Positions 21,317 through 52,458 of a DNA stretch of 53,544 nucleotides are shown here, one piece after another. Below the pieces are notes generated by a model. The model did no database searches, had not been told where the DNA came from, and saw only the letters and a list, made by a program, of their open reading frames with translations. The stretch comes from a virus. Every line of letters starts with the position of its first letter. Within the stretch, counting starts at the first letter, position 1. The stretch is from positions 1 through 53,544 of IMG/VR virus record IMGVR_UViG_3300028025_005543; one strand, 5' to 3'. The position numbers and the translations under genes were made by a program.

Positions 21317-21334
21317 GCCTATAGGATAGTGCAT
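21317..21334. promoter_or_regulatory. Overlapping divergent leaderless promoters
   Basis: TATCCT on the minus strand (21323-21328) lies six bases before ATG 21316. TAGGAT on the plus strand (21322-21327) lies seven bases before ATG 21335. The two -10 elements share a CCTATAGG palindrome, so the two genes can hardly be transcribed at the same moment. Confidence 0.5.
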
Positions 21335-34400: not shown

Positions 34401-35907
34401 CAATGGCCGCTGCCATACCACCAGCAAACATCTCTTGACTTGCAACAAAGTCGGCTATAGCAGCCGCTCTTTCTTCTTCGGTGCGAGCGCCAGTTACATT
34501 AATTCCAAGTCTTTGACCCTTTTTCACTTCTGGAACCTGAGAGGCTGCGTTCAGGGTCATTTTACCAATGTCAAAATTTATATAAAATTTAGTATCGGCT
34601 AATTTTGACCCGCCCAATGGTCCAGCCATCGCCTCTTCATTTCCTCTAAGCGGATATTTTTTGAGGTCGTTAGATAATATGCCAGAAAATCTAACTTCAG
34701 AAATTTCTCTTGCTACATGTGGGTCACGAAGGTATGTTTCAAGAAGCCTTGTTAGAACTCCACGTTCTACTGCAAGTGCTGTTTCTGGAGTTAGACCTCG
34801 TGCTTTTGCGGCTTCAAGTTCTTCTTCTGACAGTGTTGCAAAATATCTTTTAAAGTCAAGACTTTGATTGGATAAATCAATATCCCACAAACCCATCTGT
34901 TTAAGTTTTGCAAAAGCAAGAAAAAGATGTTCGTTTTGTGCTCGTTGTTCTGGCGTTACTTCAATCCCCAGTTCTGAAACAAGATTGTCTACAGCGTCTT
35001 CCATCTCGACCATGCGAGCCTGACCGCGTGTACGAGCATTCTTCAACCATCTTGCTTTAGGTCGCTCTAATTGCTCTCTGTATCTGTTGGCCGATGTTAA
35101 AGAAGAGCCAGACCTATCACGAATGAACCTACTGCCAAAACCAGTTGCTCTTTGATGCCCCCACCATTCAGCAATTGAATCAAGACCTTGTTGTGCTAGT
35201 TCACGTATTTGAGCCGCGGAAATAGCGAAGCATGTGCTTCCAAATTTGTCGGTAAACTGATTGGCTTGAGGAGTGCCCGGTGGGCACCGGAATTTTCCCA
35301 AGTCGTCCACCACCACCTTAAATTGCTTAGCTGCTCTTTGTGCAAGACCACCAGCAGGATTCATTTGGCGAATTGAGCGACCAATTGATTTTACTGATTC
35401 AGCATTTTGTTCAGCAACTTCACGTTCGCTTAGTTTTCTTGTTGGTTCTCCATCTTTGTCAACCTCGTACACATCGAGGGTGACTTGTGGTTCCTTCATT
35501 AGCTGTTGAATTGCTTCTTTAAATGTATTTGCTGTAGGCGGTGCTGGTTCTTCAACCCAACCAAAGTTGGCATGTTTATCCAAGCCTTTGCGAACATTCA
35601 TTGGAGGGAATAGGCGGAGTTCCATGCCAGGACCGCCCTTTGCGGAAGGGTCGTATCTCCATCCGTCAATATTCTTAATTCCCGGAAGTTCTTTTTCTTC
35701 CTTCTTTGGTGCTTTATCTTGTTCGCTCTGAGCAACAGTCTTGCCAATCCCCTTGACCATTATTTCGTCACTATTAGAGATTGACTTTGTTGACAGTTCA
35801 AGCCCATCCATGAAATCAGCAACGGCTTCTTCCAGCCTGTTTTGGTCGTGCCCAATTACACGTCTAGAGGTGATGAACCTATTCTTTGGTTGTTCGTTGC
35901 TGTCCAT
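31465..35907 (-). CDS. Giant 1480-residue head-operon protein with metallopeptidase motif
   Basis: The N-terminal 200 residues are charged and carry no obvious fold. A Cys-pair motif follows, FRCPPGTPQANQFTDKFGSTCF (about 206-228), similar to that in the 660-residue protein. A helical region and then a zinc metallopeptidase signature AAHEIGHVIQ (about residue 515) come next; a later IELSAELYALRD could supply the third ligand. The remaining 900 residues are modular, including NLVVRFQP, TPEQIRDAL / TPEQIQEAL duplications (about 1090-1130) and a degenerate GLASQSD near 32970. ATG is preceded by AGG. Probably a virion or head-internal multidomain protein; the peptidase motif is clear, the role inferred. 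Confidence 0.8.
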   Translation of the reverse strand: MDSNEQPKNRFITSRRVIGHDQNRLEEAVADFMDGLELSTKSISNSDEIMVKGIGKTVAQSEQDKAPKKEEKELPGIKNIDGWRYDPSAKGGPGMELRLFPPMNVRKGLDKHANFGWVEEPAPPTANTFKEAIQQLMKEPQVTLDVYEVDKDGEPTRKLSEREVAEQNAESVKSIGRSIRQMNPAGGLAQRAAKQFKVVVDDLGKFRCPPGTPQANQFTDKFGSTCFAISAAQIRELAQQGLDSIAEWWGHQRATGFGSRFIRDRSGSSLTSANRYREQLERPKARWLKNARTRGQARMVEMEDAVDNLVSELGIEVTPEQRAQNEHLFLAFAKLKQMGLWDIDLSNQSLDFKRYFATLSEEELEAAKARGLTPETALAVERGVLTRLLETYLRDPHVAREISEVRFSGILSNDLKKYPLRGNEEAMAGPLGGSKLADTKFYINFDIGKMTLNAASQVPEVKKGQRLGINVTGARTEEERAAAIADFVASQEMFAGGMAAAIAVDGRKGKGVHTAAHEIGHVIQMMRWKKLMMAKYSNKELNELTSGQIVDSMIDLGDGIDFVDLGVTRESMEAVAILGGKYPLDLYRAEGMSQLWAIELSAELYALRDMGILEGDDIDAALEWMDKTAKAKDATHRANTRKRQMALVAKEMSKPLMDGDRPDYPIEPEDGGKPPKPRKPPRVFTSKKDSDSFGKSTRRKQIEKLNEQEGGAIERIGDPATTRVASLLDGDPTQEILAIHRDHKRLRRIGELPDKFDIHEGSVAEQIEHTLIPTLTALEKSKLPSNLVVRFQPKSTANPGEMLSIPELRSFQLEHDELGLPPGTIAIELGPDASGIFVPSDPFDSSVDEAGKFGRVMLPPGRIFITGTDADGRITARLVDQESSSESLQRMVDNWPTKGNSKLEDGILRREKANAQKLVDNHNEKVRAGGGEVLPDGRSGPVLAREIRRNNEDVVDRLRRNGGRPTKPNRDYVDGLASQSDASTAGYDNAFGVASTPIERRIDRDIMLNEVISDISAGGFPDNPELAEMISSMTPQEIQEQLEGVVFDIHDSIDRRPRLRMSELDIDSMMDMSFPRVQPIDGSGNPDNKRKYGLTDLTPEQIRDALKLTETEKPNPTPSGLTPEQIQEALKDMDFDRKPGYYSFGQTGSAKKYAVEYQSRIGIHPDTPDSDRPVSGYVVHKSQRDMTVDALKKKGIVAGDMPFEYESEDTPMGNVGVDGDIEIILRPEVSGRTAYGFGRGPEQQTRPVWMNSDDPDDIMDALLHPTSDNYKTRFANAMIVADDNDIASFMNSKSIKPSKLNSDYESKLDSFKSDLSGQQPLGAHIMGGFKKEEISAVVHPWSKIQEASKDVDISDAIEQEPISEKLSRLGFSPEEIQYFYSLNGNSLGSINTSAMQQLRAYRKSQEISDKYKKMGIPEVQFAHKHGLDMLSPRSYSITNNDEGDVEDVLKERIQAEIDNELKAALKKIQKTRNELAEIKI

Positions 35908-35920
35908 AGGACTCGCCTAA

Positions 35921-37330
35921 TTAGATGTCTTGTGATTCGTCGCTAAGAAGTTGAAACTCCAGCAAAGAGCGCTTGAAATCTTCATCCTCAATGTTTGCTG
36001 ATTCATCTTTTTGACCCATTACCCAGTTTGAAGGAATTAGTTTTTCAAGACCCAGTGCTCGTGCTCGTTTCATGATGTGACGCTTTGCTGCTTCTTTGTC
36101 TTTTGCTCTTCCAAATGCTTGAATAGCATTCTTCAAGTCTGATTCAGTCTTGATTGGATACGAGCCATCAGGAAGAGCCATACCGCTTTCAGCAAGTTCT
36201 TGTCTGCTCTCTTCAGAGAATGCTCGTTTTAGTGCAATTTCGGCAGCCTCAGCCTCAATCTCTTCCGCTTCTTCCTTGGGGTAGCGGTCATGACCAAGAA
36301 CTTCGCCATCAAGAGAAACGAAAACATCATAAGAGTATCCATCAAGCGCTTCAACTTCAACTGCATAGGTATCTACTCCCTCAAACCAATCTGGCTCAAT
36401 AGCGACAACTTCTCCCGGAACTGACTTGGTTGCAATGTCTCCAGCCTCATCAAATGTAATAAGCATTAATTCATCTGACTTGGTTTGAATATTTCCATAA
36501 CTATCAGTCAATCTATGACCGTGGATAATTCCAGTAGTTCCATTGATGAACACATCAAATGTTCGACCATCTTTGCGTTGAATGCTCACTGCATACATGT
36601 CAGCTTTTGCTACATAACCAGAATCTACAACCTCGCCTTTGACAAGAGTTTGTGCATAGCCTTCTGCATGTAGAAGAGTCATTTGACCTTTTGTACCCAT
36701 GCAGCCACCTGGGCATGTTGCACATGCTGGAGTTCCACCTGGATACACCTTCGCATCCATTGCGCACTTGTATCCGCCTGCACCAGCATCCATTGCCTTG
36801 ATTCCCATTTGGTTCAGACGTGCTTGTCGGAATTTTTGCATCATTCCAACTTCTTCATCTTCTAGGATGTCTTCATCCTCTTCGTCCTCTTCGTCTTCTT
36901 CGTCCTCGTTTGCCATCTCGCCTTCAGCATTTTCCTCTGCAGCGAGTTCTCCTTCTGAAAGATTCTCTTCTTCGGACTCTTCCTCTTCTTCGTCCTCTTC
37001 CTCGTATGGAACTTCAGCAGTTTCATCGTCTTCGGTCATTGCGTCTTCCATTGCGCGAGGACGTGGCTTCTTCTTTTTCTTATCGTCTTCTTCTTCCATT
37101 GAAGCCATTGCTTCATCAGCTGCTTTTTCGTTCAATGCTTTTTGGAGCATCTCGTACTCTTCGGCACGGAGAACTTTCATTTCAATGGGCAATGCTCCGC
37201 ACTTACCGCAAACTGGCGCTCCTGCGCTGTATCCACAATCTGCAGTTCCAAGTCCCTTGGCGCACTTAAGGACATTGCCCTCTGCATCAATGCTGACACC
37301 GGCTACTTGATTTGGGCTATTTGAGTCCAT
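35921..37330 (-). CDS. Acidic Cys-motif protein, scaffold-like
   Basis: The 469-residue protein has an N-terminal Cys cluster (LKCAKGLGTADCGYS, VCGKCGALPIEMKVLRAEEY), a long Glu/Asp-rich disordered stretch (about residues 79-165), and a second Cys cluster (YKCAMDAKVYPGGTPACATCPGGC, about 187-212). Two tandem PepSY-like repeats follow (MYAVSIQRKDGRTFDVFIN and TYAVEVEALDGYSYDVFVS). The C-terminal block DGSYPIKTESDLKNAIQAFGR, HIMKRARALGLEKLIPSNW is a motif I associate with phage capsid-region proteins (DUF6582-like). Position between protease and capsid genes, with strong acidity, suggests a scaffold or capsid-internal protein. Confidence 0.8.
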   Translation of the reverse strand: MDSNSPNQVAGVSIDAEGNVLKCAKGLGTADCGYSAGAPVCGKCGALPIEMKVLRAEEYEMLQKALNEKAADEAMASMEEEDDKKKKKPRPRAMEDAMTEDDETAEVPYEEEDEEEEESEEENLSEGELAAEENAEGEMANEDEEDEEDEEDEDILEDEEVGMMQKFRQARLNQMGIKAMDAGAGGYKCAMDAKVYPGGTPACATCPGGCMGTKGQMTLLHAEGYAQTLVKGEVVDSGYVAKADMYAVSIQRKDGRTFDVFINGTTGIIHGHRLTDSYGNIQTKSDELMLITFDEAGDIATKSVPGEVVAIEPDWFEGVDTYAVEVEALDGYSYDVFVSLDGEVLGHDRYPKEEAEEIEAEAAEIALKRAFSEESRQELAESGMALPDGSYPIKTESDLKNAIQAFGRAKDKEAAKRHIMKRARALGLEKLIPSNWVMGQKDESANIEDEDFKRSLLEFQLLSDESQDI

Positions 37331-37406: not shown

Positions 37407-40400
37407 CTATTCTGAACGGAACTTCTCAAATTCCTCTGCACTAATTCCGAGTTTGTCAAGCAACAGTCGAATCTGGGCTGGGGTGATTGTTAATGGGCTT
37501 TTTCCACGTGAACCACTTGCAGAACGCGGATTATTAATGAAGTTTTTGGCGGCAGATATTGAAGGTCTGCGACCAGTTATTTCAGCAATTGCCTCTACTA
37601 CTTTCTGTGGGAATCCGCGTCTACCTCTTGCTGAGTCAAATGCTTGATTTTTGAAAACATCGGCAAGTGGCATGCTGTCTGTTCGTCTTGGCTCAGGAGC
37701 AACATTTAGTTCTTCTGGGCTGTAAATATCGGCACTGCGCTTATTTGACTTCTTTGCCTTGAGAAGGGTGTCAATCTCATCTGCAGTAATTCCTTCTGCA
37801 AAGATTCTCCTCCATGTGTCACGACCGAATATCTTGGCATTTTCTCTTGCACTTGGCGTGTTGCCTCTTGAAACTGAGTACACCGGTGCATCGGGGTCAA
37901 TTCCAACCTCTTCAAATACTGCCCTTGGGTCAATGTATTTCCGCTTACGGCTTGTTCTTGGACCTCTTGCACCCGGAACATCTGGTGCTGTATCTTCAAC
38001 ATCTGGAATTTTGTCGTAATCAGTAATAGGGTTGCCTGATTCGTCATAGTAGGCAAGGGGGTCATTATTTACACCCCACAATGTTCTGTCTTCACCAGCA
38101 ACTCGTATCCGCAGGTTGTCAAGCAAGTAAATATCGCTTGTTCTTGCACCTGGTTTTCTCATTTTTTTCGCAACAGCGACATCAATACCAAGTTCATCAG
38201 CAAGTTGGGCATCAGACATACTTCCTCTGTCTGTACCACCGAACTTTTCGGCAACCCTAGCAATGATTGGTTCAAAACCCCATGAGCGACCACTTCTTTC
38301 ACCTTCAAAGAAGATGTCTCGCTCAATCATGTCAATCGGGTTCTTTTGGTCTCCCCGTGAAGCAAAACCATATTCCGAAGCATCTGGACCACTGCGACGC
38401 TTTCCTGGGCGCTTCTTTGAGCGGAGTCTGTCTCCATCTGCAAATCGCTGACGGTCTTCAGGAGACCAACGCGCCTTGGGGGTGCGAGGACCTTTGTCGC
38501 CACGAGATGCTAGACCACCGCCACGATTCATGCGAGATTCAGAAATCATTTCATCATGAAGTTTTACAGCTCTATCCAGCGCCCATTTTGGTGGTGGTGC
38601 ATAGCGGGAACGTTCATCTTGCATATCATTGACGATTTTGTCTATGCGTGGCTTGTATTTCTTATTAAACTCGTCATTACCTATGATTTCTTTCATTGCA
38701 CTTGAGATGTATTCTAGATAGGCGCCAATTTCCATTTCCGTATCTTCAAATGCATCAGAACTTGTTCTATTTTCGTTATATTCAACAGGCATCCTTGGTG
38801 TTGCAATTTTTTCAAGTTTTGAAACAGAACTTTGAGCATCACCCCGTGAAGGGAAACCGCCCCTATTTCCACGTAGTGTCATTCTGTTCAGTGCATCCCA
38901 CTGTCTGTCGGACAGTTCGCCATTTCGGTCGTACTGTGCAACGACGCTTCTCGTGAACGGGGTGTTCATTCTTCTTGCAATGGCAATGATTTCGTTCTTC
39001 TCTGGGGTGCTGAGATTCATTCTGCTTGCAAAACCATCCTCTGGAGATGGCTCTTCAGGCATCATGTCTTCTTGTTCCATTAAGTAGTCTTGAGCGGCAT
39101 CGTATGCCCAGTCCATTGCATCAAGTTCATCTGGGTCCATTGAGTCACCACCAGAAGCAAAGCCACCCTCATAGACCTGACCGTTTTCATCAAGCAATGA
39201 ACCAGTTTGTGGGTGGTCAAATGCTTGAGCCCATACGGTCTTGTTTTCATCACTTAGCATTGAAGGCTTGAGCGATGCTTGGTATGCAGTTTCGCCAAGT
39301 TCATCAGCATAAACATTGTCCCATTGACCAAGAACTCTGGTCTTGCCTTTGTCCTTGCCATTGGTGATGATTTGCTCTGCTCTTACGAAGTATGTATCGC
39401 TTCCGCCGTCGTAGCCAACGATTACTTGCTGGTTTCTGTTGACCGGAAGAACCATTTCGTTGTTACGCTTCTTCGCTCTTGTTCCAGAAATTGCCATAAG
39501 GTTTCCACGGCCAATTTGAGAGAGTGCTGTTCGCATGTCAAACTCACTTGGCTCGTATCCACCTGGTGTTGGCCAGTCTCCACGTGATGCAAAACCTTCA
39601 ACGGAAACTACTGGTTCGCCAACAACGGCGATTTCTGGTGTTTCAAATTCTGCCTTTTCACCATTGGAGAACTTACTCTTTGCATTTGGTGAAATATCCA
39701 GAATGTAATTGACGGCTTTTTGTGCATCAGTCATTGCTTTCTGAAGGGCATCTGGGTCTTGCTTTAGAGCCTTCAACCATGATGCAAGGTAAGGTCCATG
39801 ATTTTCTTGAATGTCTGGCTCAATATTGTGAGAAGACATGAATATGGCCGAAGCGATTTCTGCTACAAGTTCTTCGTAAGCATATTCAGGTGTTCCAAAT
39901 GCGCCCATCTGCTCTCTGTCAAGACGACCCTTGCCACCCGTCCAGTGCATCAACTCATGGCCTACTGTTGAGTAGTAACTTCTAGCATCATTGAAATTCT
40001 CAAAGTTCGGAACTTGGATAAAGTCACCGCTTGGTTGGAAGAACGCTCTGTCTCCACCATTTTTGATAACAGCAGGAATTTCTGAAATAGTTTTTTCTAG
40101 GTCAGCAACTCGTTCTGCTTCTGGAAGGATTTCCTTCTTGTCAAAGTCAGCTGGCATTCCATCAATCTGTTTAAGGTTGAACACTGTTGCAGCCTTAAAA
40201 ATGATTTTGCCTTCACCCATTGTTCCGTCGGCTTTTTCTTTGCCTTTCATGAACATTGGAACAAAGATTTGTGTTCCTTTTTCGCCCTTGCGAACTTGTC
40301 CGCCAAGACCCTGCCACTGGTTATATGTTGCCCACTTATTGGAGTCGTAACCTTTTATGTCCGACATTACGGACAAGAAGAACCAGTTAGAACCTGAGTA

Positions 40401-43400
40401 TTTTTTACCAGTTGCACCGTTTTCTGGCATTCCGGTTCTTCTCCATGGGAGTTTCCATTTGCCAAGATTTTCAGGGTCTTCTAAGGCATCAATGAGTTGC
40501 TTTTGCATATCTGCAAAAACATCTTCCTTTGTCCTTCTCTTTACACCGCTCTCTCCTCTTGAAGCAAATCCACGAGGGGTCAGTCCAATGACGTCACCAT
40601 CTGAATATCCTCCAAGAATCGAGAGCGGGTCAACTTTTGGGCGGTCGCCGCCAGTCTTTGGGGTTGCACCATCAAGAATGTCTTGAGCGAGTATTTCTTG
40701 CATCTTTCCTGCAACCAATGAATTCGGCTCACCATACTCATTGGTTAGTCTGTAACCAGCAATACCTTCTTTTGAAAGAGCATCTTTCGCTCTTTGCATT
40801 AGATTGTCGTACTCTGGGTCGCCAGAATTTGCCATTTCAGCAAGCCTGCGTTCTGCAGTCATTCTTGCTCTGTTCTTAGGAGTGTTTCTTAAACTTGGGT
40901 CACCTGTTCTTCTTGGCTTTTTAGGACGAGATGGAATATTTCCATATCTGTCAAAATCAACTCCACCTGAAGCCAATCCGCCAGTCCTTTGGTTGGAGCC
41001 CTTAATGATATTCTCTATAATTTCTCTGCGCTTATTCTCAAGGTCAGACGCTACTGCAGCCATCTCAAAGGCATCCATGTTCTTTGCAAACAGTCTTTCA
41101 AAATCTGTTTCTGAAAGACCCAAGTCAACAAGCATGTCATCAATTTCTTTTTCGCTCATTGTTGGGTTCATTTCCTCTGCTTTTTGTCTTGCCCAGAAAG
41201 AGTAGTCATCGCTGGCCCTCTTGAGGTCTCGTTCAAGGGTAATCAAATTTGCCTTTGCCTCTTCGTCGTAAAGTCTTCCTATTTCATCGTCAATTTCTCC
41301 CAATGATGCACCATCTCGTTGCATTTTATTGAAATATGCACGATTATTGTCAATCATGTCGTCGGCAACTCTTCTTTTTTGACCTCTTGTCATATTGGAC
41401 CACGGTACAGTATTGATTGATGGCTTATATTCAGCCGAATCAGCCCAAACTCCACCCCCAGCTGGTGGAAGAACTCTGTCAAGAGCATTAAAGATTGAAG
41501 GATTTCTATCAAGTTCTGTGTCAAGAAGGGTCATAGGGGCATCTGGATTGAATGCAGATGTTTGACGTGAAGCGAATCCGTCCATTGGTTCTTCGTCCAT
41601 ATAGTCATATTCTTCGGGCATGTCGGCAGCAAGTTGGTCAATTGACCGCTTCATTCTGCTTACATAATCTTCTGCTTCACTAATATCTGTTGAATCGCTT
41701 TCAAGAGGATTGTCAATTAGTGACTCAGCAGTTAAGAATGCTGCTCCGTCTAGACCGTATGCGCCAAGTTCTCTATCGCTTATGCCGAGAGCATTGACTT
41801 CGTCTCGTAGACTAGAGAATGCATCCATGAGCGAATTAGAACGTTCCTCACGGAGTTCTTGTGCCCGTTGAGCCCAAAACTCGTACGCATCTTCAATGCT
41901 TGGTGCTTCTTCATCAAATTCATTAAAGTATGCTTCCATGACCATTTCGTCATTCTTGGCTTTGTCTTCAGGACTGTAACCAAATTCTCTTAAATCGTCG
42001 TACTCTTCATTAAGCACACCACCTGAGGCGAAGCCATCTTCAAAGTCTGCTGGTTTTCCGTCCGGACCAACCCAAAAACCATTTTCGTCTTGGGTTTGGA
42101 CTATTCTCTTGCGCCTTGGCGATGAAGGCTTGGCGAATATTCTTGGTCCGTAGAACTCAATCAATTCATCAATCCGTTGCTTTCGCTCTTCTGGGTCGGT
42201 GATTTCAGCAAGGGCTTCTCTGTCATCAGAGTGCATTCTTGAAGGAACGATTCTTTGACCAGTACTGCTCTCATTGATTGATGCACGTGAAGCTAATCCG
42301 TCTTCAACGCTGTAATCCATTGGCTCACCATCACGGTCCATGTTCCCAATTGGATTTGTTGCATTGCGTCCAGCCGCTCTATCTCTTGCTCTTTGGGCTG
42401 CGAGTTCGCGTCCGTATTCTGCATCGTCTGGCGGTGGTCCAAGTCGACCTGAAGCGAATCCATCACGACCGTTTCGTCGTCCATTTATCTTCTGAATATC
42501 AGAAGTCGTGTATGCGCGCTTGTTGTAGTTTGTTGCCCGACCATTTTCATCAAGGTAGAAACCATTTGCGTTTGTACGATTGGTGATTTTTGGATTTGAC
42601 CTCTCGCCCATATCACCCATTGAGTAAAACGCTGATTCAGGGATTGCTGTTTCTGTTCTGAATTCAAAGTCGTCGCGCACTCTACGAAGAGTTGCTCCAC
42701 GACTATCAGATGCTTCAATGTCGTCAACTACAGACTGTGGAACATTCTGGTAAACATAGAATTCTCCGTTGCCCTTGCCGTCACGTCCACGATACTCAAC
42801 TCGCAGTTCACGCTTGTCTGGGTCGTATTCAACACGGTTGAGTGCGGCGCTTGAGCCAACATCAATTTTGCGGTAACCCATACCAAGTTCTTCTGCTTGC
42901 ATTTCCATCATTGCAATCTGACGGTCGTCATAGGCTCGTGCTTTTGCATCAGCAGTAATTTCATCTGCTGAAGTGCCTGTACCAGCATTGATTGCTGAGT
43001 CAACAGCACGTGCAAAATAAGCACGTTGTTCTTCTGGTCCAATCTTGTCCCAGTGTGCATCAACTTGTGCTTCGTATCCACCAGCACCGAGGTCGTCTTC
43101 TGCGCCTGGAGTACGCTCCATTCTGTCGTTTGCCCCAGCGCGTCGAACCGACTTTGACGCCTTCAGTCTGTTGATTATTTTGCCCTTAGAAGAAGCCGAG
43201 GCAAGTTCATTTGCCTCATCTGCTGTTACACCTTCGTAGATATAACTTCCAGCAGCATTTCCGTCTTTGTCCTTGAAAGTGACAACGAGTTCTTCTGCAT
43301 TTGGGTCGTAATACGACTCGTAAAGAGCAGCACTTCTGCGAACATCAATGTCTTGAATTGCCGATGAACGACCACCAGCAGATGGAGTCATATCTCCACG

Positions 43401-46400
43401 ACCATTGATTGCATCAACTGTTCTTGGGTTCGTTACTTCAACATCGTAATTTTTCTTTACGTCATTGATTACACGACCAATTGAGTTTGAACCACGAACT
43501 TCGTTGTCAAAGTAGTCTGCAGGAACACCAGAGTAGGTGTAATACCTTGCTTCACCACCAGTCTGTCCAGGCTTAAATGCAACATGGAGTTCACCGGTAT
43601 TGCGGTCGTAGTGAACTGCCTCAATCGCACTTGAGTTTGGAGTTTCAAAAGTATCAAAGCGTGAACCGCCACGTGATGCAAATCCAGACCGTGAATTTCT
43701 GAGTGTTTGACGTGCAGTTTCATCTGCGCGAGCATTTCTTCCACCAAATGCTTCTCGTGCTGTAAGTGGGTTTGTTCTACCTTCAAACAATCTGTCTTCT
43801 GGGTAGTTTTCATTCCAATCAAGTTCATCAAATGGCTCTGGAACACTATTGAGGTCTGATTCTGCTACTTTATAATTTTCTTCTTCTCTGCGCAGGCTTT
43901 CATCAAGAGCAGTGCGGAGAAGTTTTTTTGCTCGCTCATTATTTGTAGTACTTGGGTCTTCAAGAAGCGATGCAATCTCATCTGCATCTGATTCAGAATC
44001 AAAGGCTCCATACTTGTCTGGATTCGTAAATGCTCTTAAATCATCAAGAATGCTCCTTAATGAACCAGCCTCGTCTTCAATGTCTTCTTCGTCACTTATA
44101 GAGTCAACGCGATTCAAAGATTTTTCAATATCTTGGAGTTCATTCCATGATGCAGAGTAATCATCCATCCATGATTTCATCCGTGCATAGTCATCACGGT
44201 GACCTTGAATCAAGCCATCAATTTCTTCAATTGCACTATCCATGCTGTCAAGCATGTTGTAATCATCTTCGTCAAAATTTGGATTATCAGTACCACCAAG
44301 AACATCGTAGATATCTGTATTTGGGGTAATGGTAATACCGTTTGCTTCTGCAATTTCCGTAGCAATTTCTCGACGTTTTTTAATTAATTCTGTTCGTTGC
44401 TCCATGAGATTGTAATAGGCGCGCGGGCCATACGCATCATCAAGGGATGCCATGTCACTTCCACTTATGGTGGTCAGTTTCGCAACATCTTTTTCGTAAT
44501 CTTCAGTTGATTTACGAGCTCCACGTGATGCAAGACCGAAGTCCTCTTCACCTAGCGTGTTGGCATCATCTTGATTCTTTTCTCTCTTGAGAACATCTTT
44601 ACTCAAAGAAGCCCTCATGGAGTCCATGGTTTTTCTGGCTTCTTCGTAATCAGAGTAATCCGCACTCATTGGATTCTTGATTATTTCTTCAACATAGGCA
44701 AACTCAGAACCGTCGTAAGCCGTTCCTCTACGCTCAGTCGTGGTAAAACCTTCAGCCAAAGCTTCCATCTCGTAAAGTTCCGAAAGCATCTCGTCGGTGT
44801 ACTTTTCGCGTGTGGTTAAACCTCTTCCATCCCACTCTTCTGCAGCCAACCGAAGTTTTTCGTCATCGCTGTATGTATCGCCATCAAAATAGCCATCTGC
44901 ATCTAGTTCGTCAACGAAATCTTTTTGAGTTTGACGGTCAAGTTCTTCATATCTAAAAATTGTAGGAATGTCAAATTTACTGATTCTTACAGGTTCTCCA
45001 AGACCCATTGCAGCATCGCTACTGCGTGAACCAAATCCCATGTCTCCAGCATCACCAAAATCGGCGAAGTCTGGGTGGAATTCTGGGTTCTGCTGGAGGA
45101 AGTCGTCGTAGTCAAAGCCGCCTTCTTCTAGTTCATTCTTAATTCTTGCCCAGTCTCCACGACCGTTGAGATAGTTCTCAATTGACTCATACAAATCTTC
45201 TTGTTCTTTGCTTGTCAAATCATTGTATGGACGCATTTCTGGTGTCGCATCTCCACTGGATGCAAAACCATTCCTAAAGTAAGGTCGCATGAGGTCTTGG
45301 TTTTCTTGCACGAATTTGTTTTTGCCGTTAGCAAATTTTTCAAAATCACCCCACCAAGTCCATTGAGGTGTGACGCGTGTGTCGCCATCATCATCAACTT
45401 CATATTCAATTTCACCGTTGATTGCTTCTTTAGCAAAATCTTCAAGTTCTGTAATGAAATATTTTCCGTCACTGCTCTTCTTGCCTGTATATTGTTTGTT
45501 TCGGAACGATTCTTCTAAAACGCGCAATGCACTAGGAGCATCATCAAGCATATCCAAGGTTTGCATATGCTCATATCGGGTTCTGTTTCCGTCCCCAGTA
45601 TTAAGGTCACGACTCCGTCTATTTGCACTATTGGTTATTTCTACGATTTTATTTCGAGATTTTCTAAATTCATTAATAAAATCACTTTGTGGATTATCAA
45701 GAATTGATTTGATTTTTGCAAATTCTTCGTCAATGGCATCTGCTTCTTCTTTTGTTAATAAGCCATTGTTGCGTCCTTCAGATACTGCATCCGAAGATTC
45801 TTTTATTCTTCTGAATAAATCTTCTTTACTAACACTGCTGTATCGCCAATCCCGTTCGCCACTTTCAATTAACTGTTTGAATAAATCTTCATCCTTTAGT
45901 GCTGGTGTTGCAACATATTCAATGCCATCTATCTCAAGAATGAAAGAATCTTCTCTTATATCAAGACCCTTTTCATCGTCTATCTGTAGAGCCACATTGT
46001 CGGCAGCAGACTTATCACGCTTCGCTATGTATTCCTTGATGTCGTTGATTATTTCTGTTTGCACTTTTTCAGGGATATTGTCCCATTCATCATCGGAAGT
46101 TGCATCGTAGTCTGGTTCTCGTTCGTCAAAATCAAAATACGGGTCTGAGTCTGGGTCGTACATTCCATCTCTGAACGAAGCAAAACCCCTATCCTCACCA
46201 CGTGAACCAAAACCATTATCCTCAAAAGGACTCATCTTGTCAATGGTGAATGTCTTTTTTACACCCTCTGAATCTTGACCAACCATGTTGACTTTGCCCG
46301 TTTTTGGGTTTTTAAAAGTCTGGACTGGGAAAACTTCTCTGTTCTTGCCGTTGTAATTGAATCTAAGTGTCTGACCGTTGTATCGTGCATCGTTAACTAA

Positions 46401-49400
46401 TTTTTCGAGTGCATCTGCATCAGCAATTTGTTCTGCCGTTGGAGTGACAATTGATTCTTTTCCAGCAGAAACCACTGGTCTCGCACCCGGAGCAATAGTG
46501 TCACCAGTCCGTCTACTATCAACAAAACCACTTGGCTTTTTGGCAGCATTCTTTTTCTTTTCTTTATCTGCTCTATTCTTTAGAACACTCCACTGCTTGT
46601 CTGAAAGGCGCCCACGCTTTCTATAATCCCCCAACAGTTTCTGAATGAATTCATCTGATGAACCATCAAGGGTGTCAATGATTTCTTTTCGCTCTTCAAG
46701 CGATAGACCACCGCCACTATAGGTCGCTGTTGACTCTGGGTATCTCCGGCGACCACCACCGCCACCGCCAACTTCTCTAACTATGCTGAAACCGTCTCTT
46801 GTTGCATCATAGATTCCGTCCCCATCTTCAGCAGCAAATCGTATTTCGGTCTGACCGTCGGACATCACGACATAGCCATCACTTGAAGTGCCGTCTGGGT
46901 TGGTTCGGTATGAACGTGAACCAAATCCAATTTGACGTTCGTTGTAATCATCAGCCGCTGCTTCAATGTAGTTATCGTAAGCAAGAGCCATTGCATACAG
47001 AGAGTCTCCGTCTGCTTCTTTCAGATACTCATCGTGTAGAGCGTCGTTGTTCATCCAGTATTCAGTAACATTTCGTGCATCGTCTTCACGTGCACCGTTT
47101 GCTTTCAAGGCTTCGATTGCTTGCTTTTCAAAGTCTTTTGCATATCCATATTTTTCTGGATTTGCTTCAAAGTCACCTTGTGCAACTTCTGGGTTATAAT
47201 CACGTGAACCAGGACGCTCGCTTCCTGGATTGTTCTCAAAGTATGCCTGCTCAATGTCAGACTTATCGTCATCAGATAATTCATCGTATGAAGACCACCA
47301 CTTACCAAGTGATGCAAATCCATCTGTTGCATTTTCTGCGTCTACCATTGCATCCGTTAGGTCGTCTAACTTGTTCTCGTGTTTACGAATCTGTCTGGTA
47401 GTTGCATTTGCTTCACTGCGAGTCATTGCATAACGTTTCATCAAGGTTTTCTTGAGTTCCTCGTCATCCATTTGGGTGTAATCCATGAAATAATCGCCGT
47501 ACTCACGGTCAAGGAAGTTTTTGAATTCCTCTAACTCCTCTAGTGGCGTTGGTTTTTGTAGCGATGGTGGAAGACCACGTGAGGCAAAGCCGTCACGACT
47601 ACGCATGTAGTCTTCGTAGTCTGGTTCAGGAATGGTGTCCTCAACCATGTCATCGTAGTAATCTTCTTCTAGTTGTCTGAAGAACTTAGAAAGTATTTCG
47701 TCACCTGCTTCGTCACTAATAGTCTTGTCATCAGACAAGTACCTATTATGCAAATCTTCAAGTTGGGAGTCACTTAACTGACTTCCGGTTCTACTGTTGT
47801 ACTTTTCCAACTGGTCAAATGTGATGTCTGTATCAAACTTGACTTTGTCAGTCAACCACTGTTCTATGTATTCATCACTGAGTTCTTCATCATCTGGCTC
47901 AATTGACCTTCTAGGGTCACCCCAAAGTCCATCTCCACGCGATGAAAGACCACGGGCAGAATCTCTTCCTTGTTCGAGAATTGAGTCTTGTTCATCTGCC
48001 GACAAACTGTCCCATCTTGACTTCTCTGTTTCAAGGTCTGCTGGATTTGCAAGGTCAGCAAACTCTTTGTCAAGTTGACCATAGAAGCCTTCTTCGTATG
48101 ATGCAAAAATATCTTCAGCATCTGCCTGCAACCCAGAGTCCGTTGACCAGTCGCCTTCTGGCAACAAATCGCCAATTCGTTCTGCTGGTGAATCGCCAGC
48201 CCATTCACCACTAAGCGGACCGCCGGTTCCATCTTCAAGAAGATATGCAACTATTCCGTTTTCACGAATAAAGTCTTTATCTTCATCACTTAGATTCTTC
48301 AGATTGTCTGCAAGAATCTGCGCTCTTCCTGATGCAATATCTGAACCACGCTTGCGCGATGCATCAATTCTGCTTTGTTGTTCTGGGGTTACATCTCCAC
48401 GGCTACTAAAGCCACGCTTTGAGCGATTTTTTTCGTATTCAGCGAGAAGTTCTCCGTATTTTGGTTTCTCGTAGCGTGGATTGTTGCGACCAGTAAAACC
48501 ATATCCGGGACGAAGGTCTTCTGGAGCATTTCCTTCTTCCAAGATGTCACGAACTCCACTGACATCAAATGTTTCTCTACCAGTTGATTCCGTTCTCTTT
48601 GGTGGAACGAATTCTTTTCCGAACTGATTCTTGTATGCTTCGCGGCGTGAGAATTCATGAGAAATCTTAAAGAGTTCTCCATCTGTTGCTTCTCTTGCAG
48701 AGCCAGTTTGTCCACGTCGAGCAGCAACAAGTTTCTGTCCTTCTGCACGGAGACCCTCTTCAGACATGTCCCAATACTTAGCAAGTCCTTCATTTTCTGG
48801 TCGGCGATTAGCAAGGAATGAAATATCATCCATTGTCCGTGGTTGAAGTTCGCCTGCAGCAAGTGCTTCTTGGCGCTCTTGACCTTGAAGAAGACTTGGG
48901 TCTTTCGTTGGCTTCTTGCCGGTTCTAATTGTTGGCTTGTCAAGAAGTTCAGATGAATTCCTCTTCTTTCCACCAACTTCTGGCAAGTCCATGTCTGGCT
49001 TCTTGATAGGAATATATGGTCTTTGGAATGCAGTACCGTCTTGTGCAAATCCGTCGTTGTCACCGTCAATTGCATACGGGTTGAACGACTGTGCAAGGGT
49101 TCGCAGGTTTCCTACGGATTGACCAATCGTTTGGCCGATTGCTTTAACTGCATTCTGAAGCGCATCAATTGCTTGTGCAGAGATGCTTCCATTAACAATG
49201 ATTCCATTGTCAGAGTCAGTTGTTGAGAGTTTATGGTAATTAAATACTGGCTGGAGCATGCTCTTTGCTTGCACCATATGAATTTGAGGAATTTCAATAA
49301 GGTGTGCATATGCAGACTTGCCAACACCAACTTGACCACCAAGCATCGTGTTCATTTCATCTTGGTCATCATCACGGTATGGAATTTGCTGTGGTTGCAT

Positions 49401-50330
49401 AGGAACCATTGATGCATCAGCAGGTTTGACTTCAATTTCTTGCTGAATTTGTGGCTTGTTGTCACTTCCAGAATATGCTTCTGGTTTTCCAAACATGAAT
49501 GTGTTGTAACCATCTGGTGTGTGGTATCCAACTCTGTACATTGAAACTTTTCCATCAGTGGTTGTTCTACGGAAAACGATAAAGCTATCTGTTGCTTCAA
49601 CAATGTCAACTTTTGAACCAGTTCTTTCACTGAGTTCTGCTTGGATTTTTTGAACTTTGTCTGCTTCTAGTGGTTGTGCAAGACCTTCTGCAAAAATGTT
49701 AAATGGTTCGTCTTGTTCTTGTTCTTTTTCTGGGGCAGCAATTACAATCATTCTTGGCTGTTGCTGTTCGCCCATCATTGGCATGCCAGCAATAATTGGC
49801 ATCATGTGATTCTTCTGTTCGCTCTTTACTGAGATAGTTCCAGTCAATTGGTTTGCACCATGAAGAACTGGAGAAACTTCGTAGAGTTCAACTTCCTTCA
49901 AAACATTTGCTTGCTGGGCTGGGTCAAATGCACCATTGATTGTCTTATAACCAATTGACCACTCTTGCTCTTCGCCGAAGAATGCAACGCTTGCAAATGC
50001 TTCTTTACCTTTTTCTGATTGAAGGTTGAATTGAACCTTTGCATACAAACCACCGATTCCAGCATTTCTCATCTTTGCTGGAAGACGTGAGTCTCCTGGT
50101 GGAACTTCGTACATCTCAAGTACTTTTCCGATTGGGTCATTCCAACTGTGCGCCCAAACAACTCGTGGCTTGCGACGAGTAAGGCTCTTTGCAAATGCAC
50201 CTGTTACAACAATGTCGCCTACTGAGTCTTTGTTGCCAATACCAGCAACGAAACACTCGACAATTCCTTGCATTTCATCAAGAGAAATTGCACCACTAGC
50301 AGCAGATTTGAATTCAAATTGTTCGTTCAT
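37407..50330 (-). CDS. Giant polyprotein: prohead protease fused to about 4000 residues of GFASRG-punctuated modules
   Basis: This single 4307-residue frame has no internal stop. Residues 1-175 are an HK97-type (S78) prohead protease: VVWAHSWNDPIGKV with the catalytic His (~60), EWSIGYK with the catalytic Ser (~125), and the LYEVSPVLHGANQLT end. An Asp-rich loop (AIDGDNDGFAQDGTAFQRP) lies near 424. From about 635 onward, some 23 GFASRG-like hexapeptides separate modules: many short acidic repeats, a WYL-like domain (~1313-1365), three KTSC domains (~2230, ~2330, ~2490), an ArdC-like domain with GHELMHW (~3250-3560), and HTH-like units near the C-terminus. The usual protease is about 200-250 residues. 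Whether it is cleaved is not shown. GGTG upstream is a weak ribosome binding site. Confidence 0.85.
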   Translation of the reverse strand: MNEQFEFKSAASGAISLDEMQGIVECFVAGIGNKDSVGDIVVTGAFAKSLTRRKPRVVWAHSWNDPIGKVLEMYEVPPGDSRLPAKMRNAGIGGLYAKVQFNLQSEKGKEAFASVAFFGEEQEWSIGYKTINGAFDPAQQANVLKEVELYEVSPVLHGANQLTGTISVKSEQKNHMMPIIAGMPMMGEQQQPRMIVIAAPEKEQEQDEPFNIFAEGLAQPLEADKVQKIQAELSERTGSKVDIVEATDSFIVFRRTTTDGKVSMYRVGYHTPDGYNTFMFGKPEAYSGSDNKPQIQQEIEVKPADASMVPMQPQQIPYRDDDQDEMNTMLGGQVGVGKSAYAHLIEIPQIHMVQAKSMLQPVFNYHKLSTTDSDNGIIVNGSISAQAIDALQNAVKAIGQTIGQSVGNLRTLAQSFNPYAIDGDNDGFAQDGTAFQRPYIPIKKPDMDLPEVGGKKRNSSELLDKPTIRTGKKPTKDPSLLQGQERQEALAAGELQPRTMDDISFLANRRPENEGLAKYWDMSEEGLRAEGQKLVAARRGQTGSAREATDGELFKISHEFSRREAYKNQFGKEFVPPKRTESTGRETFDVSGVRDILEEGNAPEDLRPGYGFTGRNNPRYEKPKYGELLAEYEKNRSKRGFSSRGDVTPEQQSRIDASRKRGSDIASGRAQILADNLKNLSDEDKDFIRENGIVAYLLEDGTGGPLSGEWAGDSPAERIGDLLPEGDWSTDSGLQADAEDIFASYEEGFYGQLDKEFADLANPADLETEKSRWDSLSADEQDSILEQGRDSARGLSSRGDGLWGDPRRSIEPDDEELSDEYIEQWLTDKVKFDTDITFDQLEKYNSRTGSQLSDSQLEDLHNRYLSDDKTISDEAGDEILSKFFRQLEEDYYDDMVEDTIPEPDYEDYMRSRDGFASRGLPPSLQKPTPLEELEEFKNFLDREYGDYFMDYTQMDDEELKKTLMKRYAMTRSEANATTRQIRKHENKLDDLTDAMVDAENATDGFASLGKWWSSYDELSDDDKSDIEQAYFENNPGSERPGSRDYNPEVAQGDFEANPEKYGYAKDFEKQAIEALKANGAREDDARNVTEYWMNNDALHDEYLKEADGDSLYAMALAYDNYIEAAADDYNERQIGFGSRSYRTNPDGTSSDGYVVMSDGQTEIRFAAEDGDGIYDATRDGFSIVREVGGGGGGRRRYPESTATYSGGGLSLEERKEIIDTLDGSSDEFIQKLLGDYRKRGRLSDKQWSVLKNRADKEKKKNAAKKPSGFVDSRRTGDTIAPGARPVVSAGKESIVTPTAEQIADADALEKLVNDARYNGQTLRFNYNGKNREVFPVQTFKNPKTGKVNMVGQDSEGVKKTFTIDKMSPFEDNGFGSRGEDRGFASFRDGMYDPDSDPYFDFDEREPDYDATSDDEWDNIPEKVQTEIINDIKEYIAKRDKSAADNVALQIDDEKGLDIREDSFILEIDGIEYVATPALKDEDLFKQLIESGERDWRYSSVSKEDLFRRIKESSDAVSEGRNNGLLTKEEADAIDEEFAKIKSILDNPQSDFINEFRKSRNKIVEITNSANRRSRDLNTGDGNRTRYEHMQTLDMLDDAPSALRVLEESFRNKQYTGKKSSDGKYFITELEDFAKEAINGEIEYEVDDDGDTRVTPQWTWWGDFEKFANGKNKFVQENQDLMRPYFRNGFASSGDATPEMRPYNDLTSKEQEDLYESIENYLNGRGDWARIKNELEEGGFDYDDFLQQNPEFHPDFADFGDAGDMGFGSRSSDAAMGLGEPVRISKFDIPTIFRYEELDRQTQKDFVDELDADGYFDGDTYSDDEKLRLAAEEWDGRGLTTREKYTDEMLSELYEMEALAEGFTTTERRGTAYDGSEFAYVEEIIKNPMSADYSDYEEARKTMDSMRASLSKDVLKREKNQDDANTLGEEDFGLASRGARKSTEDYEKDVAKLTTISGSDMASLDDAYGPRAYYNLMEQRTELIKKRREIATEIAEANGITITPNTDIYDVLGGTDNPNFDEDDYNMLDSMDSAIEEIDGLIQGHRDDYARMKSWMDDYSASWNELQDIEKSLNRVDSISDEEDIEDEAGSLRSILDDLRAFTNPDKYGAFDSESDADEIASLLEDPSTTNNERAKKLLRTALDESLRREEENYKVAESDLNSVPEPFDELDWNENYPEDRLFEGRTNPLTAREAFGGRNARADETARQTLRNSRSGFASRGGSRFDTFETPNSSAIEAVHYDRNTGELHVAFKPGQTGGEARYYTYSGVPADYFDNEVRGSNSIGRVINDVKKNYDVEVTNPRTVDAINGRGDMTPSAGGRSSAIQDIDVRRSAALYESYYDPNAEELVVTFKDKDGNAAGSYIYEGVTADEANELASASSKGKIINRLKASKSVRRAGANDRMERTPGAEDDLGAGGYEAQVDAHWDKIGPEEQRAYFARAVDSAINAGTGTSADEITADAKARAYDDRQIAMMEMQAEELGMGYRKIDVGSSAALNRVEYDPDKRELRVEYRGRDGKGNGEFYVYQNVPQSVVDDIEASDSRGATLRRVRDDFEFRTETAIPESAFYSMGDMGERSNPKITNRTNANGFYLDENGRATNYNKRAYTTSDIQKINGRRNGRDGFASGRLGPPPDDAEYGRELAAQRARDRAAGRNATNPIGNMDRDGEPMDYSVEDGLASRASINESSTGQRIVPSRMHSDDREALAEITDPEERKQRIDELIEFYGPRIFAKPSSPRRKRIVQTQDENGFWVGPDGKPADFEDGFASGGVLNEEYDDLREFGYSPEDKAKNDEMVMEAYFNEFDEEAPSIEDAYEFWAQRAQELREERSNSLMDAFSSLRDEVNALGISDRELGAYGLDGAAFLTAESLIDNPLESDSTDISEAEDYVSRMKRSIDQLAADMPEEYDYMDEEPMDGFASRQTSAFNPDAPMTLLDTELDRNPSIFNALDRVLPPAGGGVWADSAEYKPSINTVPWSNMTRGQKRRVADDMIDNNRAYFNKMQRDGASLGEIDDEIGRLYDEEAKANLITLERDLKRASDDYSFWARQKAEEMNPTMSEKEIDDMLVDLGLSETDFERLFAKNMDAFEMAAVASDLENKRREIIENIIKGSNQRTGGLASGGVDFDRYGNIPSRPKKPRRTGDPSLRNTPKNRARMTAERRLAEMANSGDPEYDNLMQRAKDALSKEGIAGYRLTNEYGEPNSLVAGKMQEILAQDILDGATPKTGGDRPKVDPLSILGGYSDGDVIGLTPRGFASRGESGVKRRTKEDVFADMQKQLIDALEDPENLGKWKLPWRRTGMPENGATGKKYSGSNWFFLSVMSDIKGYDSNKWATYNQWQGLGGQVRKGEKGTQIFVPMFMKGKEKADGTMGEGKIIFKAATVFNLKQIDGMPADFDKKEILPEAERVADLEKTISEIPAVIKNGGDRAFFQPSGDFIQVPNFENFNDARSYYSTVGHELMHWTGGKGRLDREQMGAFGTPEYAYEELVAEIASAIFMSSHNIEPDIQENHGPYLASWLKALKQDPDALQKAMTDAQKAVNYILDISPNAKSKFSNGEKAEFETPEIAVVGEPVVSVEGFASRGDWPTPGGYEPSEFDMRTALSQIGRGNLMAISGTRAKKRNNEMVLPVNRNQQVIVGYDGGSDTYFVRAEQIITNGKDKGKTRVLGQWDNVYADELGETAYQASLKPSMLSDENKTVWAQAFDHPQTGSLLDENGQVYEGGFASGGDSMDPDELDAMDWAYDAAQDYLMEQEDMMPEEPSPEDGFASRMNLSTPEKNEIIAIARRMNTPFTRSVVAQYDRNGELSDRQWDALNRMTLRGNRGGFPSRGDAQSSVSKLEKIATPRMPVEYNENRTSSDAFEDTEMEIGAYLEYISSAMKEIIGNDEFNKKYKPRIDKIVNDMQDERSRYAPPPKWALDRAVKLHDEMISESRMNRGGGLASRGDKGPRTPKARWSPEDRQRFADGDRLRSKKRPGKRRSGPDASEYGFASRGDQKNPIDMIERDIFFEGERSGRSWGFEPIIARVAEKFGGTDRGSMSDAQLADELGIDVAVAKKMRKPGARTSDIYLLDNLRIRVAGEDRTLWGVNNDPLAYYDESGNPITDYDKIPDVEDTAPDVPGARGPRTSRKRKYIDPRAVFEEVGIDPDAPVYSVSRGNTPSARENAKIFGRDTWRRIFAEGITADEIDTLLKAKKSNKRSADIYSPEELNVAPEPRRTDSMPLADVFKNQAFDSARGRRGFPQKVVEAIAEITGRRPSISAAKNFINNPRSASGSRGKSPLTITPAQIRLLLDKLGISAEEFEKFRSE
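39690..40560 (-). other. ArdC-like antirestriction module within the giant protein
   Basis: Between two GFASRG linkers lies a complete ArdC-type unit. The N-terminal ssDNA-binding part has KWKLPWRRTGMPENGATGKKYSGSNW and YNQWQGLGGQVRKGEKGTQIFVP. The metallopeptidase part has YYSTVGHELMHWTGG and YAYEELVAEIASAIF, with HExxH and a downstream Glu. ArdC proteins protect incoming DNA from restriction and are delivered with conjugating plasmids. Confidence 0.75.
42640..43665 (-). other. Three tandem KTSC domains within the giant protein
   Basis: Three related units start with S-x-A-(I/L), then VHYD, SYYD or VEYD, LxVxF or LRVEY, a Tyr-containing strand (YYTYSGVP, SYIYEGV, FYVYQNVP) and end GRVINDVKKNY, GKIINRLKAS or GATLRRVRDDF. 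This matches the KTSC domain, a small fold seen at the C-terminus of lysyl-tRNA synthetase-related and phage proteins. Function here is unknown. Confidence 0.65.
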
Positions 50331-50436: not shown

Positions 50437-52458
50437 TTAGTAAATCGAATTCCAGGCTCCGTGAGTTTCTTCAAATGCAATTTCATGGCGGACTTTTCCA
50501 TGCAAGTTCGTGTACATCTCAATAATTTCTTTCTTGAGCGACTCGTGTCTTGCTTCTTCACCTGGGGTGTTGATTGCATTGATGATGGCATTCTTTACTT
50601 GCGAGTACATATCGGCATTAATCTGCTTAATGTTCTCAATGTGGCGGTAAACCTTCACACTGATATCAAGCGAACTCCAGTTTGCATTTGGCTGTCTGAT
50701 TTCAATGGCATCTTTGACGATTGCTGAAAGCACTGGTTTGATGTCATCTTCTAGTTGCTTATCCCAGACATCAGGGTTGATGATTGACTCGGCATCAAGT
50801 GTCCCTGCAAATAGTGCTTTGCGTGACTTAATCCCATTTGCCTTTTCCATGACAACACGTTGTTGTCTTTCAAGAACTCGCTCAAGGGAGCGGTCAAGAA
50901 TTTCAACCCATCTGTCAAGAGTTCTAGACAAGTCCTCAGACTTGAACTGCATCGGCCCACTTGCTGAAGCCATCCCCTCTGGGAGAGGTGCTGTTGCAGT
51001 TTCGGGTGCGCCCATAGGTGGAGCGATTTCTCCGGGATTTGCACCCATTCCACTTGTTGCTGCAGCCAATGCACCAGCCATCGTGTTCGGGTCAAGACCA
51101 CTTGGAGGTGCTCCCTCAACTGGTGGCATTCCCGGAGGCATTGCCCCTTCTGGCGGTGGCATTCCAGGTGCTCCCGGCGCCCCAGGTGCTCCACCAGCCA
51201 TCATCGGTGGCTCTTCCATCTTCTTCTTAGTGTTGGCAATTGGCGTCAAGTTTGGATTCAATAGAAGCGAGTCAGCAAGGTCAGCTTCAACTTCCTTGCG
51301 ACCACTAAGCAATCTGTATTCATTGACACTGATTACACCCTGTGATAATTCTTCTTTCAAATATCTTTCACGCTCTTGTTTGTAGAGCATGAGGACAGGA
51401 ACCTCGCTTGTATCAAAGTCAACGTAGTTGACAGGGTCAAGTTCGTCAAGTGCTCGTGCAAGAGGCTCAAGGTGGGGAAGCATTGTCTCTGTCCAGAACA
51501 CGCGGATTTCTTCTCCAGCATTGCTGAAGGTTCTTCCTGCAGCATTGCCGATTACCGTTTCAGGAACACCGAATGCAGCGAGAATTTCTTCTTTTGTAAT
51601 CTGGCGCATCTGAATATAAGCGGCATCTCTTGGACTAGCAGAAACATCAACAAAATCAACTCCATCGTCTGCTGACAGAACTGTCGTTCTGCCCGTTGTT
51701 GCAAGGTTTCCTCTGAATCGACTCTTCAATTCTTCTTTATCGTCGTCATCAATTTCGCCCTTAACAACCAAGAGGCTTCCCGGACGACCATCATTCATTA
51801 GGAAGTTTCTGTTGTACAACTTTGCAAAGTTCTCAATTTCAATTGCAATTCCAGCTGATTCCATTGGTGTTAATGAGAGGTATGGGTCAAGTGGGTGTGG
51901 TCTTCTTACCCATACAACATCTTCAGGCTTGAGAATTACTGGCTCTCCGTTTGGCATCATCACTTCGTAACCAGAAACGAATTTCTTTGGACACGGGATT
52001 GGTGATGTTGCTTGAGGTGGCAATAGGTTTAGACCAATAATGTCTCCATCGCGCCCACGAACCTTTTCAATGAATGCCCCACGAGTTCCAAGGAGTAATT
52101 GCGATGAAAGTCTGTAGCGGAAGATAAATGAGTTTTCGCCAATGTTTGACTTAGTGTTAAGAACTTCAAGCAGGGTTGAATTTTCTGCCTTCTTGCCAAC
52201 AAGGATTTCTCCATCTGGAGAGTTGTCTTTTCTCAAAATAATTGGAAGTCTTGCTTGGTTGCCTGCAATTACGTCAATGCATCTGGCCACCCAAGTAACT
52301 CGTTGCATTCCTTCTCGGTACGCACGTTCAATGTCCCATGAGTCCTTGTATGGCTTGCCGGTAAAAGACTGATTTTGCGCTACGGGCGCACCGGGTCCAA
52401 TGAGTGCCTTGGAGTTAATATTGTTGAGGGCTTTATTTGAACCTGTGTTCCATGCCAT
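50437..52458 (-). CDS. Portal protein, HK97 family
   Basis: The 673-residue protein forms the dodecameric DNA-entry channel at the head vertex. It matches HK97-type portals: WDIERAYREGMQRVTWVARCIDVIA, RLSSQLLLGTRGAFIEKVRG, LPPQATSPIPC, VVWVRRPHPLDPYLSLTPMESAG, FLMNDGRPGSLLVVKG, and the conserved AFGVPETVIGN with AGRTFSNAGEEIRVFWTETMLPHLEPLA. A Pro/Gly/Met-rich linker (about 405-480) separates the core from a helical C-terminal extension (DRWVEILDRSLERVLERQQR...). Stands first in the minus-strand head operon, followed by the protease fusion. The ATG has only a weak AGG site upstream. Confidence 0.92.
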   Translation of the reverse strand: MAWNTGSNKALNNINSKALIGPGAPVAQNQSFTGKPYKDSWDIERAYREGMQRVTWVARCIDVIAGNQARLPIILRKDNSPDGEILVGKKAENSTLLEVLNTKSNIGENSFIFRYRLSSQLLLGTRGAFIEKVRGRDGDIIGLNLLPPQATSPIPCPKKFVSGYEVMMPNGEPVILKPEDVVWVRRPHPLDPYLSLTPMESAGIAIEIENFAKLYNRNFLMNDGRPGSLLVVKGEIDDDDKEELKSRFRGNLATTGRTTVLSADDGVDFVDVSASPRDAAYIQMRQITKEEILAAFGVPETVIGNAAGRTFSNAGEEIRVFWTETMLPHLEPLARALDELDPVNYVDFDTSEVPVLMLYKQERERYLKEELSQGVISVNEYRLLSGRKEVEADLADSLLLNPNLTPIANTKKKMEEPPMMAGGAPGAPGAPGMPPPEGAMPPGMPPVEGAPPSGLDPNTMAGALAAATSGMGANPGEIAPPMGAPETATAPLPEGMASASGPMQFKSEDLSRTLDRWVEILDRSLERVLERQQRVVMEKANGIKSRKALFAGTLDAESIINPDVWDKQLEDDIKPVLSAIVKDAIEIRQPNANWSSLDISVKVYRHIENIKQINADMYSQVKNAIINAINTPGEEARHESLKKEIIEMYTNLHGKVRHEIAFEETHGAWNSIY

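Follow-up and report, generated by a model that had tools for sequence, protein, structure and literature searches.

A giant phage open reading frame headed by a prohead protease is punctuated by a lineage-specific peptide word, a candidate site of cleavage

The window analysed here is the whole of IMG/VR virus record IMGVR_UViG_3300028025_005543, a stretch of 53,544 nucleotides. One of its open reading frames (ORFs) encodes a single chain of 4307 amino acids (aa) that begins with a prohead protease domain of the S78 type and is punctuated by a short repeated peptide word (GFASRG or a close variant) lying at the borders of its modules. In our reading of the window this giant ORF has an ATG start and one stop codon, and is open throughout. 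In related uncultured phages, which are widespread, the corresponding chains carry other words, each characteristic of its lineage, and the overall pattern most likely reflects cleavage sites that co-evolve with a single sequence-specific protease.

The N-terminal domain matches Peptidase_S78 (PF04586) in Pfam at aa 23-173 (E = 1.8e-10), and the head maturation protease family PHROG 80 (E = 9e-26). The regions of the catalytic His and Ser are near-invariant in an alignment of 34 relatives. Both the fold profile with its catalytic regions and the position of the gene, between those of the portal and the capsid on the same strand, are as found for S78 proteases. A preliminary description of this DNA had proposed that a long unbroken frame opens here as an S78/HK97-type prohead protease; this is borne out on both counts. 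Proteolytic activity of the domain on virion proteins is predicted. An AlphaFold2 model of aa 1-800, which includes the protease region, was too poor and was not used.

Table 1. Features of the 53,544-nucleotide window, with coordinates and the support for each.
Feature	Position	Strand	Support
Giant ORF, predicted polyprotein, 4307 aa: S78 protease and about 22 punctuated modules	37407..50330	minus	homologues in 36 related contigs
S78 prohead protease domain, aa about 20-175	49806..50273	minus	WAHSWNDP and EWSIGYK active-site regions intact
AIDGDNDGFAQDGTAFQRP element, aa 420-438 of giant ORF	49017..49073	minus	read directly
Stretch with 23 punctuating words, first aa 640, last aa 3988	38352..48413	minus	
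Three KTSC domains in one module, aa about 2222-2550	42681..43667	minus	Pfam KTSC E 6.6e-23, 3 stretches
ArdC N-terminal antirestriction domain, aa 3271-3384	40179..40520	minus	Pfam E 3.3e-24
MPTase-PolyVal zincin metallopeptidase domain, aa 3411-3533	39732..40100	minus	Pfam E 1.1e-37
Second giant ORF, 2069 aa, without protease; words at aa 425, 771, 1182, 1305, 1688	9469..15678	minus	
1480-aa ORF, HExxH zincin motif, class-specific word near aa 250 (GFGSRF here)	31465..35907	minus	
469-aa acidic ORF	35921..37330	minus	
Portal protein, directly upstream of polyprotein	50437..52458	minus	Pfam Phage_portal E 6e-50
Major capsid protein, HK97 type	25935..27242	minus	Pfam Phage_capsid E 1.7e-49

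The preliminary description counted roughly 23 near-identical hexapeptides, and 23 words are indeed found, the first at residue 640; these comprise GFPSRG and 22 matches to G[FL][AGS]S. Their spacing is irregular, ranging from 9 to 408 aa (23 sites, looser forms included). There are 19 matches to the pattern G[FL][AGS]S[RG], where a first-order Markov model built on this protein predicts 0.27 (the maximum being 3 in 1000 simulations) and shuffling gives 0.08; these controls rule out an origin in chance or low complexity. The codons vary widely among the copies; the word is thus not a plain DNA repeat, and selection appears to act on the peptide, with the caveat that there has been some spread at the level of DNA. 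The same word is present five times in the second giant ORF, which had not been noted previously. Under a stricter pattern all 25 matches in the window (G000) fall within these two ORFs, with none in the other 47; the 1480-aa ORF has a single weaker match, GFGSR.

The words mark the borders of modules that have been shuffled among phages. With the words masked, 32-35% of the ends of BLAST alignments between modules are no more than 15 aa from a site, compared with 13% after circular shifting (reached in 0 of 500 trials), and only 29 sites lie deep inside such alignments where 303 would be expected. None of 28 Pfam domains holds a site (12.1 expected). The ArdC module of the window is bounded by GFASRG at aa 3254 and aa 3579, while in the related contig G012 the site pairs 1642/1808, 1891/2544 and 3136/3418 enclose KTSC, UvrD helicase and RNase_T domains respectively. 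In an AlphaFold2 model of aa 3200-4010 (811 aa, about 31% of which fall below 50 in the predicted local distance difference test, pLDDT), all seven sites lie in stretches of pLDDT<50 between folded parts, and the ArdC-MPTase part matches the solved ArdC structure 6i89 (E = 3e-17). The separation of modules by the word, as originally described, is therefore confirmed, and the word is not located inside folded domains, a location that had been named as one that would refute the idea. The chain has a protease within it and sites between folded units, as in viral polyproteins, and its processing into several products is predicted.

At least 597 stretches in IMG/VR encode a relative of the window protease, many of these relatives standing at the head of ORFs of 2000-5500 aa, and 36 related contigs were taken whole for comparison. 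Among these the order portal, protease-headed ORF, 469-aa ORF, 1480-aa ORF, 663-aa ORF, capsid is conserved. The protease-headed ORFs range from 720 to 5494 aa; the shortest are cut by contig ends. A de novo search for repeats in each of them found GFASRG in the window and its near relatives, LGSRS in G009, R[LF]SSG in G012-G016 and G027, KLSSG/RLSSG in G025, G026 and G028, GFxSST in G018, G021, G022, G032, G033 and G036, GLASSS in G023, and FASSS in G024, G034 and G035. The best word is present in 10-20 copies in the large protease-headed ORFs, compared with 3-6 in shuffled sequences, and a common core [FLM]-x-S lies within about 94% of sites. We also note a 2698-aa protease-headed ORF at about 9940 in the marine metagenome bin L201, with the word G[LF]xSRR; from its sequence it appears that the punctuated system is present in marine phages too.

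The word follows the protease. When the class of word is mapped on a maximum-likelihood tree built from the protease domain, 9 changes are required, compared with 23 when shuffled (0 of 200 shuffles being as low). The protease of G009 is 84% identical to that of the window, yet the junctions of G009 read LGSR. Homologous modules, including ArdC and that designated 3582, carry the word of the genome in which they sit; thus the word preceding the ArdC module is GFASRG in the window, LGSRA in G009, RLSSG in G012-G016 and KLSSG in G026 and G028.

The same agreement extends to proteins that are not fused to the protease. Position weight matrices for each lineage were run over all other ORFs, and the resulting class-by-class table is enriched on the diagonal, with some cross-hitting between the related classes A, D, E and F. 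For four strict words in 18 genomes there are 69 matches in trans to a genome's own word and 18 to the three foreign words combined, a result not reached in any of 20,000 label permutations; since this count takes related genomes as independent samples, and since the contigs tested are also those on which the classes are based, the p-value is indicative only. A single motif thus recurs in several proteins of one phage. The 22 LGSR matches of G009 (140 kb) all lie in two ORFs, with none in the 170 others, and at orthologous junctions of the second giant ORF the window has GFASRG and G009 has LGSRG. The family of the 1480-aa ORF carries the lineage-specific word near aa 250, and, unexpectedly, in several lineages (G004, G006, G007, G009, G012-G016, G018, G022, G023, G032 and G034) the tape-measure protein has a lineage-type word near aa 20-55 and again near 580-745. 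Two further candidates were rejected. A conserved FLxS of the capsid does not follow lineage and was not accepted as a site of delta cleavage at the same word, and EGMASASG at the C-terminus of the portal, present in G000 and G001 and not in other lineages, was treated as chance.

The protease-led chains of relatives contain further domains, including UvrD helicase, RNase_T exonucleases, NUDIX, GNAT and sigma-70 region-4. Domains resembling sigma-70 region 4 are fused to the prohead protease in G012 (L119:472-14682) and G023 (L172:7282-13551), and the chain of G012 also has a UvrD-type helicase and an RNase_T exonuclease; these modules are bracketed by the word of the lineage (regions noted are aa 1234-1500 and 1891-2544 of G012 and aa 1058-1232 of G023). 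From their sequences it is possible that the sigma-like, helicase and exonuclease modules are effectors of transcription and DNA handling carried in the virion. In the window, a calcium-loop-like element DGDxDGxxQDxTxFxRP (AIDGDNDGFAQDGTAFQRP) opens the cargo in both giant ORFs, being found also at the N-terminus of ORF 9469-15678. The DGDxDG pattern is present in many relatives, and this could possibly be a docking or packaging element.

The second giant ORF contains three HExxH zincin motifs, WYL and RNase_T exonuclease domains, and DUF5872. The family of the 1480-aa ORF, which adjoins the head block, is recognised by KFRCPPGTPxANQFTD and HExxH in its N-terminal 400 aa; its members reach 3490 aa of punctuated cargo, and no match to it was found in cultured phages. 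The C-terminus of the protease protein of Gordonia phage GMA6 (Orf19, L083:10389-11843), DLKNAI.A.GRAKDKEAAKKHI, resembles by eye that of the separate 469-aa ORF of the window, for which reason the latter is possibly a scaffold-like part that became detached from the protease where cargo was added. A TauD-type dioxygenase (15961-16752, minus strand) and a DUF932 protein (20294-21334, minus strand) are encoded among the late genes, and the window also encodes SSB, a B12-dependent ribonucleotide reductase and WhiB. The WhiB gene, together with phages of Gordonia, Brevibacterium and Streptomyces as the closest cultured relatives, indicates that the host is probably actinobacterial. A scan of cellular genomes gave only metagenome bins of doubtful phyla, and was not used to assign the host.

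Computed directly, the word of each lineage stands at module borders in disordered linkers of a protease-headed architecture and is the same in cis and in trans. Because it is repeated, specific to a lineage, in agreement across unrelated proteins of one genome and tracks the fused protease, it is very probably the recognition site of one phage-encoded factor. We consider that this factor is the S78 protease, cutting during head maturation, with a probability of about 0.72. Prohead proteases are in general built into proheads, so an S78 protease with folded effector modules trailing from its C-terminal side (ArdC antirestriction, zincins, KTSC and many unknowns) would bring that cargo into the prohead in fixed proportion to the number of protease copies. 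Packaging in the head is also suggested by gene context and family precedent. The protease would then cut at the [F/L]-[small]-S words in the linkers during maturation, both in cis and, in the other cargo ORFs, in trans. The scissile bond would probably follow the Ser, giving a P3-x-P1 site like the L-x-E of T4 and the A-x-E of SPN3US. The freed modules would leave the head with the DNA, as suggested by the precedents of the polyvalent and Dar proteins. We infer from these patterns and precedents the cleavage at the word, the identity of the cutter, the scissile bond, the packaging and the ejection.

A number of observations weigh against this assignment. At P1 there would be a Ser, where the proteases of T4 and phiKZ cut after Glu. 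As the preliminary description had remarked, the word is absent from the N-terminus of the capsid protein, the classic S78 substrate; in an alignment no word covarying with class was found there. Nor was a recognisable word found in G029-G031, L202 and L203, relatives that have a short protease ORF only. The tape-measure protein is not in the interior of the head, so if its word is a cut site a head protease would act on a tail protein. Identity of codons between copies of the word is 0.45, compared with 0.335 (standard deviation 0.026) expected from the codon usage of the ORF, suggesting that the linkers have in part spread or recombined as DNA. Lastly, an HExxH motif is present in relatives of the 1480-aa ORF in every lineage inspected, and provides an alternative cutter.

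The last point leads to the explanation that best survives after that of the S78 protease, though it is unlikely, namely that the words are cleaved by a metallopeptidase, either MPTase-PolyVal or the HExxH zincin of the 1480-aa family, acting within the virion or, once ejected, in the host. MPTase-PolyVal lies within this very polyprotein, and processing of polyvalent proteins by zincins was predicted by Iyer et al. (PMC5512222). However, MPTase-PolyVal is missing from 11 of 17 contigs, two of which are of 132-136 kb and have clear words, and as a universal cutter it was rejected. The S78 domain, by contrast, is the partner that does not vary, forms one chain with the substrate, and has a tree that the word follows. 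A zincin cutter would moreover leave unexplained why the protease stands first in the chain.

It is improbable that the words are no more than flexible linkers or seams of recombination, spread by duplication and homogenised in each genome without being recognised. The shuffling of modules between phages and the raised codon identity of the copies would fit such seams, but the codons are still widely varied, the lineage word occurs also in the unrelated contexts of the 1480-aa family and the tape measure, orthologous junctions bear different words in different lineages, and a plain linker has no need of a fixed [FL]-x-S core. Marginally less credible still is that the words are uncut peptides docking the chain to capsid or scaffold, for although T4 and P1 employ short targeting peptides and a docking partner would equally account for the lineage specificity and for a word shared in cis and trans, docking would hardly call for some 20 internal copies, set in the disordered linkers at module borders, which fit cutting better, and the N-terminal protease already provides a route into the prohead.

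Cleavage by the S78 protease modifies what was originally suggested, i.e. a self-processing or protease-processed cargo polyprotein. Processing by a protease is favoured over a plain linker, given a word that is clade-specific, tracks the tree, recurs in trans and is confined to borders, but 'self-processing' is too narrow; since the second giant ORF and others carry the word without a protease, 'protease-processed in cis and in trans' is the better term. On balance we lean towards a broader view, in which a maturation protease leads a modular, shuffleable delivery system, with a lineage password at each junction in cis and in trans that co-evolves with the protease. If so, an effector would gain packaging in the head and subsequent release merely by acquiring the password, and these phages would pre-load new cells with antirestriction proteins, a helicase, an exonuclease and even a transcription domain of sigma-like type. 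The dozens of natural lineages differ in both protease and word, with 10-30 copies of the word per genome, and would constitute a dataset on how the specificity of a protease and of all its substrates changes jointly. By means of the words, thousands of residues of phage dark matter can further be divided into separate candidate effectors of antirestriction, antidefence and transcription, and the word itself might be used as a portable tag to bring proteins into phage heads.

The closest cultured relatives are the Gordonia phages GMA6 and DalanDe, the Brevibacterium phage Cantare and the Streptomyces phage Gilgamesh, whose proteases are 37-42% and capsids 36-54% identical to those of the window. 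The protease of DalanDe sits within an ORF of 1633 aa. Gene 48 of Gilgamesh (MN234216, 31978-45852) is an unannotated 4624-aa ORF between a portal-MuF fusion gene and the protease gene, and by analogy may be regarded as a culturable counterpart of the giant ORF; no repeated word was found in the large late ORFs of the cultured relatives, gene 48 included. GFASRG was not found in the literature searched. A fused PolA polyprotein of Aquificae viruses (PMC7689252) is likewise a multidomain fusion of a tailed phage called a polyprotein, but it consists of replication enzymes, with no fusion to a prohead protease and no punctuating word reported. In the Dar system of phage P1 (DarA, DarB and Ddr) antirestriction proteins are packaged and ejected, and the prohead protease cleaves DarA (PMC12810830); these are separate genes with one cut and no repeated word, unlike the system in the window.

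The closest parallels are with two kinds of system. Polyvalent proteins are giant cargo proteins of several domains, among them ArdC-N, MPTase-PolyVal and nucleases; they are encoded by late genes beside those of the virion and are predicted to be packaged and injected (PMC5512222). The chain described here has ArdC-N, MPTase-PolyVal and three KTSC domains together, with richer sets in relatives, in a context of portal, capsid and tape-measure genes, and we infer that it is packaged and injected in the same way. It differs in its far larger size, in a lineage-specific border word shared in trans (the word 'linker' was not found in the text of PMC5512222), and in having an S78 protease at its N-terminus, whereas the assemblin-like peptidase of polyvalent proteins is always C-terminal (PMC5512222). 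In SPN3US, phiKZ and T4 a single protease processes many proteins of the head, recognising a short P3-x-P1 motif that shifts between related phages, being AXE in one and S/A/G-X-E in another (PMC5694885, PMC10052503). The single short motif and its shifting specificity are common to the phages described here, as the large mass of internal protein would be, but in those phages the proteins are separate and what is cut off, at Glu sites, is mostly an N-terminal propeptide, while the window has about 20 cut-like sites between the folded modules of one protease-led chain. The [FL]-x-S core ends in Ser and has no Glu, so that by motif it does not belong with the x-x-E sites of T4 and phiKZ. The giant chain thus combines two known kinds of system, polyvalent cargo and prohead proteolysis.
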